A stretch of DNA of 39,529 nt from positions 1 to 39,529 of IMG/VR virus record IMGVR_UViG_3300037189_011092. One strand, written 5' to 3'. The stretch's first letter is position 1, and each line of letters starts with the position of its first letter. The notes below the pieces were generated by a model. The model had not been told where the DNA came from. It did not search any database and worked only from the letters and a program-made list of their open reading frames with translations. This DNA comes from a virus. Both the position numbers and the translations under genes were made by a program. Of this stretch, positions 2,812 to 36,570 are shown piece after piece.

Positions 2812-3006
2812 TTAGCGATCCTTACTTGCCTTTTGTTTTAATTTTTCATTTTGTTCATTAATATAGTTTAATAACATAGTAACGTAAATATCTCTTTCCC
2901 ACGGTATCATATCTTCTATCTCGGATAATGAATAATTATGATTATTTACGAGAGAAAAGTTTAACTTATAATAGTTAAGAAGTCCTTCGTGTGAAAGAGT
3001 TAGACG
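2812..3006 (-). CDS. gp51-like C-terminal extension of gp26, reached only by -1 frameshift
   Basis: The -1 frame relative to gp26 is open from an in-frame TGA at 3027-3025 to a TAA at 2814-2812. From the slippery site it adds 64 residues, starting RLTLSHEGLLNYYKL and containing SEIEDMIPWERDIYVTML and a Lys-rich end (EKLKQKASKDR). No ATG, GTG or TTG occurs in this frame before the ATG inside EDMIPW, about half-way along. Expression as a separate full-length protein is therefore unlikely. A slip on T_TTT_TTC would give a 293-residue gp26 fusion. The position between gp26 and the tape measure candidate matches T4 gene 51 (baseplate hub assembly factor). The PWERDIY core resembles tail-assembly chaperone extensions as I remember them. 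The TAA lies two bases before the next ATG (2809). Confidence 0.8.
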   Translation of the reverse strand, partial: RLTLSHEGLLNYYKLNFSLVNNHNYSLSEIEDMIPWERDIYVTMLLNYINEQNEKLKQKASKDR

Positions 3007-3692
3007 AAAAAATTTTGCAGGCCCTCAAGAGTAACTTCATTATGGGCACCGCATTTTGAGCAATTCTGTTCTATATGTTGAGTAACTTTTGGCATAGTTA
3101 TAAAGAACTGTTCCAATTTTTCAAACTGTGCTCTTGAAAAAGAATTGACAAATTCTATTAATTCTTCCTTTGTATAGTCCTCAGTGTATTGCTCATCTGT
3201 AAATACCGCCTTAATACAAGTGCATAACATTTCCACTACAGACTCAGATTTAAAATTCTCATAAATTGCTGCCATTTCTTCAAATTTAGGATATCGCATT
3301 TCTAATCCTATTGTATCAGTAATGAATATTTTTGTAGTATGCTCAGGATTACGCTTAACTTCTGCTTTAGTTATATCTAGTTCAAAGTTTATTTCGTTTT
3401 CGCAATTGTTGCACTTTAAATTTAAACTTGTCATTTCTCCTATAGATTTTGCTCGTATATTTAAAAACAAATATTCTATATCAAAATTTGGTAAAGTTCT
3501 AACATCAAGTTTATTAAATGTGCAAACATCTACTAAATCTGTTACTATTCTTTGTATCTCTGTTCCATCTGATTCTAATGCGGTTAAAAGTATTTTATAT
3601 TCCTTTACTAGGAAAGGTCTATACTTAACCTTTTGGTCGGTTGATGGTAAAGTCAATTCATAGGTAGGTGTTTCTAATTTTGGTAAAGCCAT
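3000..3692 (-). CDS. gp26: Baseplate hub / tail assembly protein gp26
   Basis: This 230-residue protein (T4 gp26 has 208) fits the T4 baseplate-protein family needed to assemble the central hub. Two CxxC pairs, C94/C97 (CNNCE) and C211/C214 (CSKCG), could form a zinc ribbon. The N-terminal motif with YELTLPSTDQKVKYRPF and EYKILL is typical of cyanophage-type gp26. The start at 3692 has a good ribosome binding site (AGGAGA, plus-strand TCTCCT at 3697-3702). The last codons hold the TTT TTC slippery pair just before the stop, so this protein is likely the short product of a pair. It follows the gp54-like gene by 25 bases in the minus-strand operon. Confidence 0.85.
   Translation of the reverse strand: MALPKLETPTYELTLPSTDQKVKYRPFLVKEYKILLTALESDGTEIQRIVTDLVDVCTFNKLDVRTLPNFDIEYLFLNIRAKSIGEMTSLNLKCNNCENEINFELDITKAEVKRNPEHTTKIFITDTIGLEMRYPKFEEMAAIYENFKSESVVEMLCTCIKAVFTDEQYTEDYTKEELIEFVNSFSRAQFEKLEQFFITMPKVTQHIEQNCSKCGAHNEVTLEGLQNFFV
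3006..3012 (-). other. Programmed -1 frameshift site (slippery heptamer T_TTT_TTC)
   Basis: In the gp26 frame the codons are AAT TTT TTC GTC TAA. The last T of AAT plus TTT TTC gives the canonical X_XXY_YYZ heptamer T TTT TTC. Slippage joins gp26 to the overlapping 64-codon frame ending at 2812. A possible stimulatory hairpin starts seven bases downstream: TCTTTC (2998-2993) can pair with GAAGGA (2988-2983), with one G-T pair and a four-base loop. The hairpin is weak, so the heptamer and the missing start codon carry the argument. Confidence 0.8.
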
Positions 3693-7324: not shown

Positions 7325-8664
7325 TGGCTGAAGAAATTCTAAGGCAACCCGGCCAAATAGAGATTGACGATCTTCTTTTGGTATCCTTTAAAACCGGAAC
7401 TGCAATTAACTTAATAGATTATCTAGTTGAATTGGTAATTTATGAAAGTATTTTTACTCCTTTTTTATCTGGCGAAATACTTTTATCTGACAGTAGAAAT
7501 TTAATTAAAGACCAAGAGTTACTTGGGGATGAGTTTTTATATGTCAACGTTAGAACTACTACATTTTCTTCAGATAAGGCAATATCCAAAGTATTTAAAA
7601 TTTACTCTTTAGATAATAAGAATTATGTTAAAGACGGAAGTTCAATGATATACAAATTGGGCTTCTCATCTGTAGAAACTTTTCAAGATTTAATAAATCC
7701 AATTTACAAATCTTTTAACGGTACGCCCAATGATATTGTGCAACGAATTTACACAGAATATTTACAAACAGATAGAAATTTAGAAATAGCGGGAAAACAA
7801 GCTCCAATTAAAAATAGTTTAACTATATTTGGCAAATCTGCAAATAGCATAAAATTTGTTAGTCCAGGTTGGAGTCCCGTAAAATGTATCAATTGGATAG
7901 CTAGCAAATCGTTACCCGAAAATAATAAAGCTGCGAATTTTCTTTTTTGGGAAACCACAAAAGGATTTTATTTTGGTAGTATTGGGGATATAATAGAAAA
8001 ACAAGATGATTTATCTATAGGGACATATAATTATTCTTTAACATTACTTAAGACAATGGATGAACAAGGAATACGAGATCATACATACATGTCTGTTATT
8101 AGATCGTTAATTGTGGAAAAAAGTTTTGATCAAATAAAAAATCTTATGGAAGGTTACACAACTAATAGATTAGTTAATATAGATGTCTTAGGTAAAAATT
8201 TCGAAAATGTAGATTATGACCATGGGTCAAAATTCGATGTATATAATCATCTTGAAACTGGCAAAGCTATACCTATGTTTGATCAAACAACTGTAAGAAA
8301 TCCATTAACTTATACTGACATAAATTTTGTTCACAAAAATTTACACACAGGATACGCTGAAAACTTTGATTATAAGCTTAAAGATATTTTTGGAAACAGA
8401 CGATCTAATATGCTAGAATTAGAAAATTTTCAAATGAAAATAACTATTCCTGGAAGAACAGATATTGAAGTAGGCAGAACTATTAATATACAATTACCAA
8501 AAGATAAACCTGGCTCGGAAATAAAGGCAATTGAATATAAATCAGATGAAATGTATTCAGGTAATTATTTAATTACAGGATTGTCTCATAAAATAAATCT
8601 TCGTACACATTTTATAACTATGAATGTGACTAAAGATTCTTTACCTGGAAGCCAACAACAATGA
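7324..8664 (+). CDS. gp27: Baseplate hub protein gp27
   Basis: This 446-residue protein (T4 gp27 has 391) forms the trimeric ring joining the gp5 needle to the tail tube. It begins RQPGQIEIDDLLLVSFKTG and has the hub-type 'YESIFTPFLSGEILLSDSRNL' strand and the GSSMIYKLGFSSVE segment. The C-terminal IPGRTDIEVGRTINIQLPK and 'SGNYLITGLSHKI' strands match the beta-rich hub domains of phage tail VgrG/gp27-like proteins. The stop overlaps the gp5 start as ATGA (8661), so the two partners are coupled one after the other. Confidence 0.85.
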   Translation: MAEEILRQPGQIEIDDLLLVSFKTGTAINLIDYLVELVIYESIFTPFLSGEILLSDSRNLIKDQELLGDEFLYVNVRTTTFSSDKAISKVFKIYSLDNKNYVKDGSSMIYKLGFSSVETFQDLINPIYKSFNGTPNDIVQRIYTEYLQTDRNLEIAGKQAPIKNSLTIFGKSANSIKFVSPGWSPVKCINWIASKSLPENNKAANFLFWETTKGFYFGSIGDIIEKQDDLSIGTYNYSLTLLKTMDEQGIRDHTYMSVIRSLIVEKSFDQIKNLMEGYTTNRLVNIDVLGKNFENVDYDHGSKFDVYNHLETGKAIPMFDQTTVRNPLTYTDINFVHKNLHTGYAENFDYKLKDIFGNRRSNMLELENFQMKITIPGRTDIEVGRTINIQLPKDKPGSEIKAIEYKSDEMYSGNYLITGLSHKINLRTHFITMNVTKDSLPGSQQQ

Positions 8665-11243
8665 GAAATTTAAATTGGTGGATGGGCGTTGTTGAGGATA
8701 GAGACGATCCAGAAAAATTAGGTCGTTGTAAAGTTAGAATATTTGGCCTTCATACTGAAAATGTTGGATTACTGCCAACCGATGATTTGCCTTGGGCAGT
8801 TCCTATGCAGCCTATAACGTCTGCAGCAACTTCTGGAGTAGGATCTACACCGGTAGGTATAGTTCCTGGTGCATGGGTAGTTGGATTTTTTATGGATGGT
8901 GCAGAATGTCAGCAACCGGTTATAATGGGGACAATTGCAGGAAAACCTAAAGATAGAGCTCCAGCAATAAGCAAACAAAAACAAGATGCATCTAAAAAAT
9001 TAAATGTAAAACGAGATGCGTTAGGTAATCCTGTATACGATGGCAAAGGGTCAGTAATAACTATAGACTCAACTAATACATCTATTCAAAGTCAATTTTT
9101 TCCTTTGGCGTCTACTGATTTAAATAAAATTTTTAGTTACTTAGGAAAACAACTATCAAATGATGATTATGCAAAAGAAGGTGAATATGGCGAATTAGGT
9201 AGATATCAATTTACAGTTTCAAATTTAATTGATTTAGGATTTATCTCATATCCTTTTTTAGGTGACGTTCCTATAGGTAAAGCATTATTAGAAACTTCTA
9301 GTAATTGGACAGGTAAAAGTGGTATCACGTCTAAAAAAGGATTTTTAGCTAGTAAAAAAATACAAGATGATGCAGTACTTGTGTTAGCTAAAGACAATTA
9401 TGATACCATGGTTACTAATGGAAAAATTAAACCTGATGATGAGGCAGCTTTTGTTGCTGGATTAATTGCAACTGCACATATTGTAGGTCCTAACTATGCA
9501 GAAAATTTAGATAGGAAAAATTCATACGGTATACGGGTTAAACAATACTTTGTAGACGTTAATGCATTATTTGGCGCAAATGTTTCAAGCATTTCAATAA
9601 ACTATAGTGATGCAAATGATTATTACCCTGTATCTGATAATGACTATAACAATACTGAATTAGCAGACATTATTGGATTTACCGATCCAAGTAAAAAATA
9701 TCCTAAATATGAATATCTTGGATTATCCGATGTCAATAAATTAGCTATAGGAAATACTACCCATACTTCTTTAAAAGTAAAAGAAAATAAAAAAATAACT
9801 AATATTGAAATAGCAAACTCAGAAGAAACGTGGAACGAACCTAGTTCTGCTTTTATGGGTAGATATCCATATAATCAAGTGATTGAAACTGAAGCTGGAC
9901 ATATTATAGAATTAGATAATACTCCCAATGCTGAAAGAATTCACGTATTCCACAAGTCAGGAAGCTATATAGAAATAGATGGTAATGGAACTATGGTTAA
10001 GAAAACCGTAGGTGATAACTATGAGATTATTGATCGAAATAATAGTTTATATGTTAAAGGGGCGCAACGATTAACTGTAGAAGGTAAAACTAGTATATAT
10101 GTAAAAGATGATGCATCAATTGAAGTCGACGGAGATGTTTCAATAATTGGGCATGGTGATGCATTGGTGCAAACTGCAGGAAATATGAAGGTAGCTGCAA
10201 AAAGTCTTGAAATTTCAGCAACAAATGCGTTAAATTTAATTAGTGATGGACCTGTTAATATTCAAGGTTCTAGTGTTAATTTATATTCCAAAGGTGGGAT
10301 GACAGCAAAGGCTTTAGGAGATTTTTCAATACAATCCAGCGGAACCATGAGTATAAAAGGATCTGTTACTTTACTATTAGATGCTCCGATAGTCAAAACT
10401 AAGATGGGTGCGAATCTAGTTAAGGCTATAGTTTATTATACCTCAAAATTGCCTACAGCTAGAAATCCAGATAAAACAGTTTTACAATATTTAGAAAGAA
10501 TTAATATAAGGGAAACTGACGGTGAAGTTGCGGCATTAACTGCAGGACAAGTTACTACTTCTCAATTAACTGGTCAACAAATATTAGATAAAACTACAAG
10601 CACCAATTCTACCGTAACAGATTCTCAAAATATACTTACAACTTCCAACGCAGGAAATATACCAATTACGGTTCAACCATGCGGTGATATTTTTGCATTT
10701 AAAACTAATTATTTTAGAGAAACCGTTAGATTATCTCGTAATTTTTACTTAAAAGATTTATTAAGTTCAGAATGCGCGCCAGTTAGGCCAGTTAAACAAG
10801 CAGGAGTTTCTGCAAAAGAAATTGTTTGTAATTTACGTCAGTTAGCATGGAATTGTCTAGATCCAATTTATAACAAATATCCAAGTATATACATTACCAG
10901 CGGACTTCGAGTGCCTGGATGTGCAGAAAAATCCGTAACTGATAGTGACCATAATATAGGGTGTGCCGTAGATATAAAATTTAAGGTTGGTATTTTTGAC
11001 GATTATTTTAATGCGGCGAAATGGATTGAGGCGAATATTCCATTTAAACAATTATTACTTGAGTATACTACAGATAAATCTGGAAATAATTTAGCAGATG
11101 CATGGATTCATATTGCATTTAAAGTAGATTATACTACAGGAAAATTATTAAGATCCAACCTACCAGTAGGTGTAATTAAAAATTACGCAACTAAGTATAC
11201 ATTTATTCCTACGGTAGAACAAGCGAAAAAATTAAAACTTTAA
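8661..11243 (+). CDS. gp5: Baseplate hub needle gp5 with lysozyme-like region, beta-helix and C-terminal M15 peptidase
   Basis: The protein has 860 residues (T4 gp5 has 575). The N-terminal OB-fold (about 1-105) reads NWWMGVVEDRDDPEKLGRCK. Residues about 165-300 contain GEYGELGRYQF and GPNYAENLDRKNSYGIRV, like a phage tail lysozyme-type domain at the same position as T4's lysozyme. I cannot assign its catalytic Glu. Residues about 410-585 hold VgrG-like beta-helix repeats (EAGHIIELD, HKSGSYIEID, GDVSII). Residues about 685-850 are an added M15 peptidase-like domain: SGLRV, then S-D-H-N-I-G-C-A-V-D with H764 and D771, and W-I-H at 815-817, giving the zinc ligands H764, D771 and H817. It would cut peptide stems of peptidoglycan. 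The M15 domain sits beyond the beta-helix, unlike T4. Confidence 0.88.
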   Translation: MRNLNWWMGVVEDRDDPEKLGRCKVRIFGLHTENVGLLPTDDLPWAVPMQPITSAATSGVGSTPVGIVPGAWVVGFFMDGAECQQPVIMGTIAGKPKDRAPAISKQKQDASKKLNVKRDALGNPVYDGKGSVITIDSTNTSIQSQFFPLASTDLNKIFSYLGKQLSNDDYAKEGEYGELGRYQFTVSNLIDLGFISYPFLGDVPIGKALLETSSNWTGKSGITSKKGFLASKKIQDDAVLVLAKDNYDTMVTNGKIKPDDEAAFVAGLIATAHIVGPNYAENLDRKNSYGIRVKQYFVDVNALFGANVSSISINYSDANDYYPVSDNDYNNTELADIIGFTDPSKKYPKYEYLGLSDVNKLAIGNTTHTSLKVKENKKITNIEIANSEETWNEPSSAFMGRYPYNQVIETEAGHIIELDNTPNAERIHVFHKSGSYIEIDGNGTMVKKTVGDNYEIIDRNNSLYVKGAQRLTVEGKTSIYVKDDASIEVDGDVSIIGHGDALVQTAGNMKVAAKSLEISATNALNLISDGPVNIQGSSVNLYSKGGMTAKALGDFSIQSSGTMSIKGSVTLLLDAPIVKTKMGANLVKAIVYYTSKLPTARNPDKTVLQYLERINIRETDGEVAALTAGQVTTSQLTGQQILDKTTSTNSTVTDSQNILTTSNAGNIPITVQPCGDIFAFKTNYFRETVRLSRNFYLKDLLSSECAPVRPVKQAGVSAKEIVCNLRQLAWNCLDPIYNKYPSIYITSGLRVPGCAEKSVTDSDHNIGCAVDIKFKVGIFDDYFNAAKWIEANIPFKQLLLEYTTDKSGNNLADAWIHIAFKVDYTTGKLLRSNLPVGVIKNYATKYTFIPTVEQAKKLKL

Positions 11244-22380: not shown

Positions 22381-24285
22381 ATGGCAACAAACACCGATGG
22401 AGCAGTATTAGCAGCAAAAGGAGCAGATGTTCCCGTATTTGCGGGTTCAGAAGTATTGGCGTTTTCGGTGGCAGATATGCCTCCCAATATTCGTATTTAT
22501 ACTTATGTGAATGGTATTAATATTACACCTTTTACCGGACCAACAACTGACGGCGCTAAGTTAGCAGATCCTATTACAACAGATCAACTTGGTTTTGGAA
22601 GCGGATATTTGTATATTCCTAGCGGTTTTGGAAAATATCAATTTGCTGCAGGTGAGATACGTTTAACGTTCGGCGATAGTTCGGATGGTATTGATCAATG
22701 CAATTATGTTTCAGAATCTACTTTGTTTAATCATGGATTAAATCTTGTAGATACAGAACAGGGCGGCACGGTATCTTTGAGACAAACTGAGAAATTCAGA
22801 ACAGATAATTCTGGTTCGTCGGGTGATAAAAATACAACGCAAAAAAGATTAGATCCGTTAACGCAAACCTTTATAGTCGACGCGCAAAAAAATCCCCTAG
22901 GCGTAATGTGTACGGGATTAGCACTATTTTTTACTAAAAAGGATGACGTATATCCGGTAGGTATAGAATTGCGTCCAATGGATGGTGCTGTCCCATCAAC
23001 TACAGAATATTTTTCAGGAACGACTGTTTTTGTAAAACCGCAAAACGTAAATCTATACACAGCAACAGCTGGAGCAAAGGCCACTCAATTTACTTTTGAA
23101 CATCCTATATATTTGAAACCTGGTACTTATGCGTTTTCCGTATTAACTAAATCTGCAAAATATGAATTGTTTTGTTCAGGTAAAGCATCAGCTACAACAA
23201 CGTTTGTTACTAATCCGCGTGGGGTAGTATCAGATATAAAAATTACCTCAAAATTAATTCAAAATTTACAATCAGATTCTGGCGCTTTAGTTGTACCAGA
23301 ATATGCTACAAATTTCAAATATCTTAGTGCAGACAATACTTTTTCAGGTGCGATCCCAACAAATTTAAAACCTAGCATAAGTGTATATCCAGGTAAATTA
23401 TTTAAGGCGCAAAATACTGGTGCATGGTTTTCAGATTTAACTCAAGATATAACTTTTTATTTAAGAAAAGCCAAATTCAAAACTGGTACTGCAGTTGTTG
23501 AAATGTCTTCTCCCGATTTAGCTATAATTGATTATAATAGATTGCGGCTTTTAAGTACAGAAGTAGGATTAGGTGATACCGCATACGTTTCTTATAAAAT
23601 GCAAACAACTGCGCAAAATACGAATAGAGATAAATCTGAATTTACAAATATTGTCCCTGGTGATCTTGTAGACATTGTAGGCAGACAATCTGCTAAAGAT
23701 AAAGGCGATATTAAGTTGCAGATTTCTATGACGACTAAATCTGCAGATGTTGCACCTATGTTGGATCGCCAGTTAATTAAATCTCAAATTTTTAGAAACA
23801 ATGTTACTGAATATAACGATGCCATTTCAGCATCAGAATTAGCTGCAAGTAATGGTACTGCTAAGTCAAGGTATATTAGTAAAGTTGTTACATTACAAGA
23901 AGGATTTGATTCTACGGGTTTAGATGTCAAGGTTAATGTTAATAGAAAAGTTGGCACGGATATTGAAGTTTTTGCCCGAGTATTATCTAAAAACGATAAA
24001 GCATTTACTGCAGGTATTGCAGCTAGACCTTGGGTTAAAATGCCATTGGTTTTGCCTAAAACAAAATCGTTTGCAGGTACAGATGAAACATTATTTACCC
24101 AAGAAAATTATAAATTAACAGAGCCAGCTTTATCATATACGAATGTTGCAAATGTCCAAGCTAATGTTGCTATTACTGCAGCATACGAGGATTTTAATCA
24201 ATATCAAATTAAAATAGTATTCTATGCTAGTAATCCTGTCTACATTCCTAAGATTAAAAATTTAGTCGCAACATCTGTACTATAA
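22381..24285 (+). CDS. Virion structural protein of marine T4-like type (DPLTQTF motif)
   Basis: This 634-residue beta-rich protein contains KRLDPLTQTFIVDAQKNPLG followed by LALFFTKKDDVYPVGIELRPM, a module that regularly accompanies DUF4815 baseplate proteins in marine T4-like phages. It has no signal peptide or enzyme motif. It lies between the 1557-residue protein (one base after its stop) and the fibre genes, so a peripheral baseplate role (fibre attachment or gp10-like) is likely. A direct T4 counterpart is not visible. The final TAA overlaps the ATG at 24285. Confidence 0.7.
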   Translation: MATNTDGAVLAAKGADVPVFAGSEVLAFSVADMPPNIRIYTYVNGINITPFTGPTTDGAKLADPITTDQLGFGSGYLYIPSGFGKYQFAAGEIRLTFGDSSDGIDQCNYVSESTLFNHGLNLVDTEQGGTVSLRQTEKFRTDNSGSSGDKNTTQKRLDPLTQTFIVDAQKNPLGVMCTGLALFFTKKDDVYPVGIELRPMDGAVPSTTEYFSGTTVFVKPQNVNLYTATAGAKATQFTFEHPIYLKPGTYAFSVLTKSAKYELFCSGKASATTTFVTNPRGVVSDIKITSKLIQNLQSDSGALVVPEYATNFKYLSADNTFSGAIPTNLKPSISVYPGKLFKAQNTGAWFSDLTQDITFYLRKAKFKTGTAVVEMSSPDLAIIDYNRLRLLSTEVGLGDTAYVSYKMQTTAQNTNRDKSEFTNIVPGDLVDIVGRQSAKDKGDIKLQISMTTKSADVAPMLDRQLIKSQIFRNNVTEYNDAISASELAASNGTAKSRYISKVVTLQEGFDSTGLDVKVNVNRKVGTDIEVFARVLSKNDKAFTAGIAARPWVKMPLVLPKTKSFAGTDETLFTQENYKLTEPALSYTNVANVQANVAITAAYEDFNQYQIKIVFYASNPVYIPKIKNLVATSVL

Positions 24286-24491
24286 TGAATAACAGATTTT
24301 TACGAATTGAAGACAATCCTGATTATGTCAAAGATATAGAATCTAATGCCATACTAAATACTAATTTAGCCGCAGTTGCTGATTATAAAGCTAAAAAGAA
24401 ACAGGCAGCAAAAATTATTAGTTTAGAACATGAAATAAATATGTTGAAAGAAGAGCTTGAAAAAATTAAAACTCACTTAAAGTTAAGTTAA
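24285..24491 (+). CDS. Small coiled-coil protein
   Basis: The protein has 68 residues. An N-terminal segment ends in ESNAILNTNLAAVADYKA, and the rest is a charged helix with heptad spacing (KKQAAKIISLEHEINMLKEE), predicted to coil. I recall short proteins of this shape next to fibre genes of marine T4-like phages. It could help trimerise or attach the downstream fibre, but this is inference. Its start overlaps the previous stop codon. Confidence 0.65.
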   Translation: MNNRFLRIEDNPDYVKDIESNAILNTNLAAVADYKAKKKQAAKIISLEHEINMLKEELEKIKTHLKLS

Positions 24492-33891: not shown

Positions 33892-36570
33892 ATGGCATTT
33901 CAGCTTTCACCTGGCGTTTTAGTAACCGAAGAAGATAGAAGCACCGTTGTACCTTCGGTAGCAACTACTGCTGGAGCATTTTCGGGAGCCTTTGCATGGG
34001 GACCTGTCAATAAAGTAACATCGGTAGAGTCCGAGGCTAAACTCGTAGAGCAATTTGGGACTCCCAATGACACGACTGCAGGATACTTTTTTACTGCGGC
34101 AAATTTTTTATCGTATGGAAATAATTTAAATTTAGTTCGTGTCGTTGATAAAGGAGTTGCACAGAATGCTGTTTCTACTCCAGACGGGCAAGTAACAGGA
34201 ATTACCAATTTAGTTTCATCTAATGATTTTTTAAGAACTGACGTAACAACTGCGGTTTTTAGTGCACCCCCAACGGGCGGCACCCAAGCTACAGCCAATG
34301 TAGTATTAAATACTACTGGTAGTTTATATCAAGTTGATATTGGACTAAGAGGATTTGGTTATAACGTTCCACCTACTATTACATTTGTAGATCCTAGTGG
34401 CGGCGGCACTGGCGCAGAGGCAACAGCAACAATAGGCGCGGGTCAAGTTTCAATAATATCTGTGGTAACATCTGGCAACAATTACAACACATCTTCAAAT
34501 ATCGTAATTCAAAATCAAGATTCAACTTCAGCCAATGCGCAATTAGTAATACACTTTAAGTTAAAAGATATACAAATCAATAATGGTGGAACCAACGTTG
34601 GTCCTTTTGGTACAGGATGTAATGTAGTAGTATCCGGCGGAACATTAGTTGCGGGCGGAAGTCATGCAAATGTTATTCCTATTATAACAGGTAATGTGGT
34701 TACAGGATTTACTATTGTCAATAACGGCAATGGGTATATTCAAGCACCGAATATTATTTTAAATAGACTAGATGGTAATACTGGTACTGCAACATCATTT
34801 ACCGCAAACCTTGGGTATGGTATTGTTAATAGTATTACTATAGTAAACCCTGGAGCAGGTGGTTATTCGTCTACTCCTAATGTCACTATTAATAAAAATA
34901 ATTCTTTAGGTGGAACAACTGCTACAGCAACTGCTCGTATTATTGCACAATTAAATGATATTACGTTAGATTCTATCGGAGGCGGTTATAGTAGTAATAC
35001 GACTGCAGTAGTAACACCTGCATCGGCAGATATTCCATACATAACAAGCAACGCAACTGCAACCGCAATAATTGGATATGGAGTTTCTGGTGTAACAATT
35101 ATAAATGCTGGAGCAGGTTATACTACAGTACCTAATGTAACAATTAGTTCTACAGGAAATGCTACTGCAACTGCTACTACGGTATTGGTATATGATGCAC
35201 CATTGATTGAAAATAGAGACGATTATGATACAAGTCATAGTACAGGTGGTTACATATATAAAGAATTTGCCGCAAAATATCCTGGTGCTTTAGGAAATAC
35301 TATTAAAGTATCAATGGCAGATTATAATACATTTACAGGTTGGCAATATTCAAATCAATTCAATTCTGCACCATTAACATCTTCTAGTGTTTCAACTAGG
35401 GGCGGCATACGTGATGAAATTCATTTAGTTGTTGTAGATGCAACAGGCGTTTGGTCAGGTAGCGCAGGAACAATATTAGAAAAATATTCATATTTATCTA
35501 AAGCATCTGATGGAAAAAATTCAGATGGTTCTACAAATTATTATAAAGATGTAATTAATAATTCATCAAAATATATTTGGGTTTTAGACCATCCAACTAA
35601 TACGTCAAACTGGGGCACTACTGCAACCAGCAAAACATTCGACGGGTTAACAGCAAATATCACATCTACATTATCTGGCGGTGTTTCTGGAGATTCAGTT
35701 TCCTCTGCTAATATATTAGCAGGTTATGATTTATTCTCAAATGATGAATTATACGACGTGTCGTTAATTCCAATGGGCCCAACGACATCGGCAGGCGCAG
35801 TTAATTCTGTTATTTCCCTTGCAGAAACAAGAAGAGATTGCGTAGTGTTCGCATCTCCTCAGTATTCGGACGTGGTCAATACTACAAGCCAAGCTGATAA
35901 GATTGTTACATATAGAGATACTTTAACAAGCTCATCGTTTGCGGTATTGGATTCAGGTTGGAAATATCAGTATGACCGTTACAACGATAAATACAGATAT
36001 GTGCCTTTAAATGGTGATACCGCAGGCTTAGCCGCAAGAACAGATTATGTTTCTGATCCATGGTTCTCACCTGCAGGATATAACAGAGGTATAATTAAGA
36101 ATGTAGTTAAATTATCGTATTCACCTTCGAAGTCGGATAGAGATACTTTATACAAGAAGGGTATTAATCCTGTAGTAACATTCCCAGGACAAGGAACATT
36201 GTTATTTGGAGATAAAACTCTATTAGCAAGACCAAGCGCATTTGATCGTATTAATGTTCGTAGATTATTCATTGTTTTAGAAAAAGCAATTGCAACCGCA
36301 TCTAAGTTCCAATTGTTTGAATTCAATGATCCGTTTACAAGAGCACAATTTAGAAATCTTGTAGAACCATTCTTAAGAGATGTACAAGGTCGTCGTGGTA
36401 TTACAGATTTCCGTGTAGTTTGCGATGAAACAAATAATACTGGAGAAATTATAGATCGTAACGAATTCGTTGCAGATATATTCATTAAGCCTGCAAGAGC
36501 AATTAATTTCATCCAGTTGAATTTCATAGCTACAAGAAGCGGCGTATCCTTCGAAGAAGTTGGCGCTTAA
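33892..36570 (+). CDS. gp18: Tail sheath protein gp18 with inserted beta-repeat region
   Basis: The protein has 892 residues (T4 gp18 has 659). It starts FQLSPGVLVTEEDRS and has the contraction-core ending RAINFIQLNFIATRSGVSFE, the standard hallmarks. The inserted region, about residues 130-435, is built of GY-type modules: GLRGFGYNVPPTITF, NNGNGYIQAPNIIL, NPGAGGYSSTPNVTI, SIGGGYSSNTTAVV and NAGAGYTTVPNVTI. They are separated by Ala/Thr-rich spacers. The insertion would sit on the sheath surface. Strong leader and ribosome binding site. It forms the contractile tube with gp19 inside. Confidence 0.95.
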   Translation: MAFQLSPGVLVTEEDRSTVVPSVATTAGAFSGAFAWGPVNKVTSVESEAKLVEQFGTPNDTTAGYFFTAANFLSYGNNLNLVRVVDKGVAQNAVSTPDGQVTGITNLVSSNDFLRTDVTTAVFSAPPTGGTQATANVVLNTTGSLYQVDIGLRGFGYNVPPTITFVDPSGGGTGAEATATIGAGQVSIISVVTSGNNYNTSSNIVIQNQDSTSANAQLVIHFKLKDIQINNGGTNVGPFGTGCNVVVSGGTLVAGGSHANVIPIITGNVVTGFTIVNNGNGYIQAPNIILNRLDGNTGTATSFTANLGYGIVNSITIVNPGAGGYSSTPNVTINKNNSLGGTTATATARIIAQLNDITLDSIGGGYSSNTTAVVTPASADIPYITSNATATAIIGYGVSGVTIINAGAGYTTVPNVTISSTGNATATATTVLVYDAPLIENRDDYDTSHSTGGYIYKEFAAKYPGALGNTIKVSMADYNTFTGWQYSNQFNSAPLTSSSVSTRGGIRDEIHLVVVDATGVWSGSAGTILEKYSYLSKASDGKNSDGSTNYYKDVINNSSKYIWVLDHPTNTSNWGTTATSKTFDGLTANITSTLSGGVSGDSVSSANILAGYDLFSNDELYDVSLIPMGPTTSAGAVNSVISLAETRRDCVVFASPQYSDVVNTTSQADKIVTYRDTLTSSSFAVLDSGWKYQYDRYNDKYRYVPLNGDTAGLAARTDYVSDPWFSPAGYNRGIIKNVVKLSYSPSKSDRDTLYKKGINPVVTFPGQGTLLFGDKTLLARPSAFDRINVRRLFIVLEKAIATASKFQLFEFNDPFTRAQFRNLVEPFLRDVQGRRGITDFRVVCDETNNTGEIIDRNEFVADIFIKPARAINFIQLNFIATRSGVSFEEVGA

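Follow-up and report, generated by a model that had tools for sequence, protein, structure and literature searches.

One gene in this phage very probably encodes both of its tail assembly chaperones. A −1 frameshift at the slippery heptamer U_UUU_UUC would join gp26 to a downstream frame and yield a gp26–gp51 fusion of the lambda G/GT type. A sequence-only reading had proposed this programmed shift as an analogue of lambda G/GT, and the conserved site and constrained −1 frame reported here support it at the level of sequence. The window that we analysed is the whole of IMG/VR virus record IMGVR_UViG_3300037189_011092 (39,529 bases, positions 1 to 39,529). It carries a T4-like virion gene set that includes tail sheath, portal, terminase and baseplate wedge genes, and the source virus appears to be a Kyanoviridae-like, T4-related phage of aquatic bacteria.

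The gp26 gene lies on the minus strand (3692–3000) and encodes a short tail assembly chaperone (TAC-N) of 230 residues in 230 codons. It matches Pfam PF12322 (T4_baseplate, E 4.9e-62) and PHROG_150 (baseplate hub, E 3e-66); no solved structure in the PDB matches it by sequence at E<0.05. Read on the minus strand, the gene ends GAG GGC CTG CAA AAT TTT TTC GTC TAA, and the slippery heptamer (T_TTT_TTC in DNA) occupies positions 3012–3006. Its TTT and TTC codons stand in frame 0, a register that fits tandem −1 slippage, so that both tRNAs can re-pair after slipping back one base.

The −1 frame is open from 3024 to 2815 on the minus strand and can be entered only after the TGA at 3027–3025. From the heptamer onward it reads TTT TTT CGT CTA ACT, and it runs for 64 codons from position 3006 to a TAA at 2814–2812, two bases ahead of the ATG of the next gene at 2809. 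There is no ATG, GTG, TTG, CTG, ATT or ATC in its first 34 codons past the site; the first start codon is the ATG at 2910–2908, which is codon 35. The predicted shifted product has 229 + 64 = 293 residues and crosses from gp26 into the −1 frame through the junction ...LQNFFRLTLSHEGL.... Direct reading of the sequence thus reproduces every position given earlier for the heptamer, the TGA, the start-less frame and the TAA, as well as the 293-residue length.

The 64 residues of the −1 frame match PHROG_634, the baseplate hub assembly catalyst gp51 (E 5.8e-25, profile positions 58–118 of 121), and align with the C-terminus of T4 gp51. We take the frame to encode the predicted C-terminal domain of gp51 (TAC-C). 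The same protein also matches the end of PHROG_150, the gp26 family (positions 236–276 of 282), which suggests that some members of that family carry the −1-frame domain joined to gp26. With the −1 frame protein as query, tblastn gave matches in 746 phage records (E ≤ 1). Among 58 close relatives, the region downstream of gp26 has a pN/pS of 0.25 in the −1 frame versus 1.02 and 2.39 in the other two frames, and none of the 58 has a stop in the −1 frame there. Judged by these substitutions, the −1 frame is under protein-coding constraint, which excludes an abandoned or random frame.

The site is conserved far beyond the close relatives. We gathered gp26 relatives from IMG/VR by four queries and from named phages, and removed duplicates. 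The resulting set, the window included, holds 264 distinct loci that lie outside the T4 clade and have a complete gene end. It spans Kyanoviridae (cyanophages, Pelagibacter phage Mosig and Methylophilales phage Melnitz-1) and also Sinorhizobium phiM7, Rhizobium RHph_Y68, KVP40-type Vibrio phages, Aeromonas G2 and Desulfovibrio phage 7757. All 264 loci have U_UUU_UUN in the gp26 frame. The last codon of the site is TTC in 239, TTT in 17, TTA in 7 and TTG in 1; the last base of the heptamer can therefore be C, U, A or G, as the X_XXY_YYZ pattern allows. The site mostly lies 10 nt ahead of the gp26 stop, with distances of 7, 13 or 31 nt also seen. In named examples the −1 frame extends 54–65 codons beyond that stop, and in most loci the next ATG overlaps or nearly adjoins the −1 stop.

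What is conserved includes the wobble bases. In 48 representatives with less than 60% gp26 identity to each other, T occupies the third position of both the codon preceding the site and the first Phe codon in 48 of 48. No other column of gp26 has an invariant third base (the median is 0.48). The codon ahead of the site is otherwise variable (AGT, GAT, AAT, TCT, ACT or GCT, for Ser, Asp, Asn, Thr or Ala). From codon usage, the probabilities of the two wobble bases are about 10^-9.4 and 10^-7.3, naive values that ignore phylogeny and are smaller than the true ones. The alignment of relatives that had been suggested as a check on the heptamer and on a start-less −1 frame under constraint is thus strongly positive (264/264, 48/48 and a pN/pS of 0.25).

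Two kinds of locus depart from the common pattern. Synechococcus phage S-SCSM1 was kept apart from the 264 loci as an exception: at about 2205–2240 its heptamer is intact, its −1 frame ends after a few codons and gp51 is encoded in the third frame, the break being either a sequencing indel or a lineage-specific change. In several other loci (L234, L209, L324, L088 and others) the longer T run NNT TTT TTT is followed directly by the gp26 stop, with the site 7 nt before the stop, so that slippage would occur beside a stop codon.

The roughly 12,500 in-frame positions of the window's main genes hold 126 XXXYYYZ sites and nine T_TTT_TTN sites. Only the T_TTT_TTN of gp26 falls within the last 10 codons of a gene and opens a long start-less −1 frame. 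On the evidence of the aligned relatives, a chance origin of the heptamer with its start-less −1 frame is excluded, because the heptamer is conserved among them. The window has one comparable XXXYYYZ site, an AAATTTA in the gene 22381–24285 ahead of an open −1 frame, which we considered as a second frameshift candidate and rejected: the next gene (24285–24491) has its own ATG overlapping the stop and is an ordinary small gene.

A Shine–Dalgarno-like element, GAGGG, lies 9 nt upstream of the heptamer (3026–3022, minus strand), with a predicted anti-Shine–Dalgarno duplex of −6.1 kcal/mol. It is a probable stimulator. Across the 48 representatives, predicted anti-Shine–Dalgarno pairing was scanned over 100 nt and is strongest for the 8-mers that start 15 nt upstream of the heptamer (mean −5.85 kcal/mol). 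Within that region the best pairing is −5.89 versus −5.01 ± 0.19 for a synonymous-codon null (z −4.7; same 48 representatives). Moreover, the Glu codon at the element is GAG in 59% versus a background of 29%, and among 11 conserved Glu columns this one has the highest share of GAG. The few ATGs that follow gp26, for example in S-PM2, would be too far from the element for it to serve as their Shine–Dalgarno sequence. From its position and conservation, the GAGG probably stimulates the frameshift. In dnaX, an internal Shine–Dalgarno-like element lies about 10 nt upstream of a slippery heptamer and a strong hairpin lies downstream. The window resembles E. coli dnaX in having its GAGG at a similar spacing upstream of the heptamer. 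It differs in the gene and in the heptamer, and the downstream hairpin, strong in dnaX, is weak or absent here.

The hairpin noted in the earlier reading does exist, 7 nt after the heptamer (2998–2993 with 2988–2983, minus strand), and it is weak, at about −4.5 kcal/mol with one G-U pair. It is not conserved as an element. The 50-nt windows downstream of the site are more folded than shuffled sequences (mean z −1.56 ± 0.28 in the 48 representatives versus −0.39 and −0.09 in controls), and downstream hairpins are common, lineage-specific and sometimes strong (−24 kcal/mol in S-WAM1). Folding of the ungapped alignment gave no consensus downstream structure. We therefore rejected a conserved downstream stimulator structure, the individual hairpins notwithstanding. 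The upstream GAGG, which the sequence-only reading did not mention, is the more consistent cis-signal of the two.

In the T4 clade the arrangement is different. T4, Citrobacter CF1, Aeromonas 50AhydR13PP and phage Phi1 have gp26 on the opposite strand from a complete gp51 of about 250 residues, and the heptamer is absent near the end of gp26 in 4 of 4. T4 gp26 is homologous to the gp26 of the window (hhalign E 1.5e-25), and T4 and CF1 keep the Phe-Phe pair, in the non-slippery codons TTC TTT. The site is kept outside the T4 clade and lost within it; nucleotides, and not only amino acids, therefore seem to be kept where the shift is needed.

The long chaperone of T4 has a similar plan. In hhalign profile comparisons the N-domain of gp51 matches the frameshift-type gp26 family (E 3e-12) and T4-type gp26 (E 1e-16), and by this measure it is a gp26 paralogue. 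By this homology, T4 would encode the fusion as a gene of its own. As the N-domain of gp51 is gp26-like and its C-terminus resembles the −1 frame, the 293-residue fusion has the layout of T4 gp51. The two are colinear: the 249-residue T4 gp51 consists of a gp26-paralogue N-domain and a C-domain that corresponds to the −1 frame. They differ in how the long form is specified, by a separate gene on the other strand without a slippery site in T4 and by one gene plus a site in the window.

We hypothesize, and regard as evenly balanced, that a U_UUU_UUN shift with a Shine–Dalgarno-like stimulator is the ancestral and nearly universal source of the T4-like long chaperone. The T4 clade would then have given up the shift in favour of a gp26 duplicate joined to the C-domain (gp51); its slippery codons would have disappeared, with Phe-Phe kept in T4 and CF1. 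Frameshifting of the G-T kind is described as conserved in long-tailed phages except T4 (PMC5009743, which reviews the work on lambda G/GT by Levin 1993 and by Xu, Hendrix and Duda 2004). If our hypothesis is true, the ‘except T4’ statement would be revised, and the cost of losing the shift would become testable. Frameshifted and duplicated long chaperones form a natural pair for comparison.

The slippage itself, its efficiency, the role of the stimulator and the chaperone function are steps that we infer. Most ribosomes would finish gp26 and release the 230-residue TAC-N. In a minority, the anti-Shine–Dalgarno sequence of 16S rRNA would be paired with the GAGG, some 10 nt upstream, on arrival at U_UUU_UUC. 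Their P- and A-site tRNAs would slip back by one base, and reading in the −1 frame would produce the 293-residue gp26–gp51 fusion (TAC-NC). If the parallel with lambda G/GT holds, the gp26 portion would coat the tape measure protein, the gp51 tail would recruit tail tube subunits, and the efficiency of the shift would set the ratio of TAC-N to TAC-NC.

Two other explanations of the locus have to be weighed against frameshifting. Many records (S-PM2, P-HM1 and S-SRM01 among them) annotate a separate gp51 CDS from an ATG, and in 110 of the 264 loci a start codon of some kind stands within the first 14 codons of the −1 frame. gp51 could on these grounds be a separate small protein, made from a weak or non-canonical start or by reinitiation after gp26, the T-tract being the product of a conserved Phe-Phe pair and AT-rich codon usage. 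However, the remaining 154 loci have no start before codon 15, a start with a Shine–Dalgarno-like 4-mer is found in only 36, and the window offers none of the six codons sought over 34 codons. The annotated starts in Syn19, phi-pp2, Melnitz-1 and C48C1 fall at internal codons, truncating the conserved domain. Nor does codon usage account well for the T-tract, given that T4 and CF1 encode Phe-Phe without slippery codons and that the two wobble positions have probabilities of about 10^-9 and 10^-7 in the 48 representatives (naive, phylogeny ignored). We consider an independently translated gp51 highly improbable.

The same protein product would also arise if RNA polymerase slipped on the T-tract and added one U in some transcripts, and the conserved run of 6–8 T is in keeping with this. 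In most loci, however, the run is only six T followed by a non-T, and six T is short for transcriptional slippage. Moreover, the T run stays strictly in the codon phase N NNT TTT TT, which tandem tRNA re-pairing requires, and a Shine–Dalgarno-like element at dnaX-like spacing would act on ribosomes. Polymerase slippage accordingly receives very little credence from us, and a ribosomal −1 frameshift is the explanation that we prefer.

The locus has counterparts among known systems. As in lambda G/GT, a short protein and its predicted −1 extension precede the gene that is the tape measure candidate here, the second frame is start-less and the next gene is tightly coupled. The lambda slippery site is G_GGA_AAG. 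The window differs from lambda in its U_UUU_UUC site, in belonging to a contractile T4-like phage and in its Shine–Dalgarno-like upstream signal. T4 gp26 and gp51 have long been listed as hub chaperones of unclear mechanism, and the locus ties them to the assembly logic of lambda G/GT. Vladimirov, Gautam and Davidson reportedly identified gp26 and gp51 as the T4-like tail assembly chaperones in 2022 (Virology 566:9-15, 10.1016/j.virol.2021.11.003), and the title of that work points to a mechanism other than frameshifting. In Vandenendeviridae (PMC12846349), too, the TAC-N gene ends in a poly-T slippery site, and an unbroken −1 frame separates it from the tape measure gene, an arrangement found throughout the family. 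This chaperone differs in phage family and in its GTTTTT core. A passage in the same paper cites Vladimirov et al. 2022 for poly-T slippery sequences in T4-like TAC-N genes, and one in PMC10885494 cites them for T4-like phages that have both a short copy and a long, fused one. As far as these citing passages go, Vladimirov et al. 2022 may already have described the frameshift for relatives that fall outside the T4 clade.

The novelty claimed for the shift stands in part. Public annotations do miss it, as had been predicted of gene finders: none of the annotated frameshift-type phage records that we examined has a joined CDS. The idea itself is less new, in that gp26 and gp51 were already T4-like chaperones and poly-T sites are credited in the passages cited above. 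New as far as we have checked are the addition of this locus to the group, the almost complete conservation across 264 loci together with the T4-clade contrast, and the Shine–Dalgarno-like element. Public records of abundant marine and freshwater phages split gp26 and gp51 or truncate or omit gp51, and a joined CDS is due. In S-WAM1, S-CAM1 and Aeromonas G2 no annotation covers the gp51 region that separates gp26 from the next gene.

The neighbours of gp26 are also tail genes or candidates for them. Upstream lies a gene for a 267-residue tail-tube-family protein (4521–3718, minus strand; PHROG_45 tail tube, E 2.6e-39). Downstream lies the tape measure candidate that the sequence-only reading had pointed to, a 571-residue protein (2809–1094, minus strand). 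Its position and weak PHROG tape measure matches (E 0.002–0.004) favour that assignment, and its length resembles that of T4 gp29 (590 residues). However, the gene has no profile match to T4 gp29, and we rejected homology between the two. Elsewhere in the window, the 892-residue tail sheath gene (33892–36570) has a long insertion, and segments of it also match head-closure Hc2, baseplate wedge and other virion structural families; these sequence matches suggest shared surface domains. A hub lysozyme-type protein of 860 residues (8661–11243) has a C-terminal part that matches a separate endolysin family, PHROG_894.
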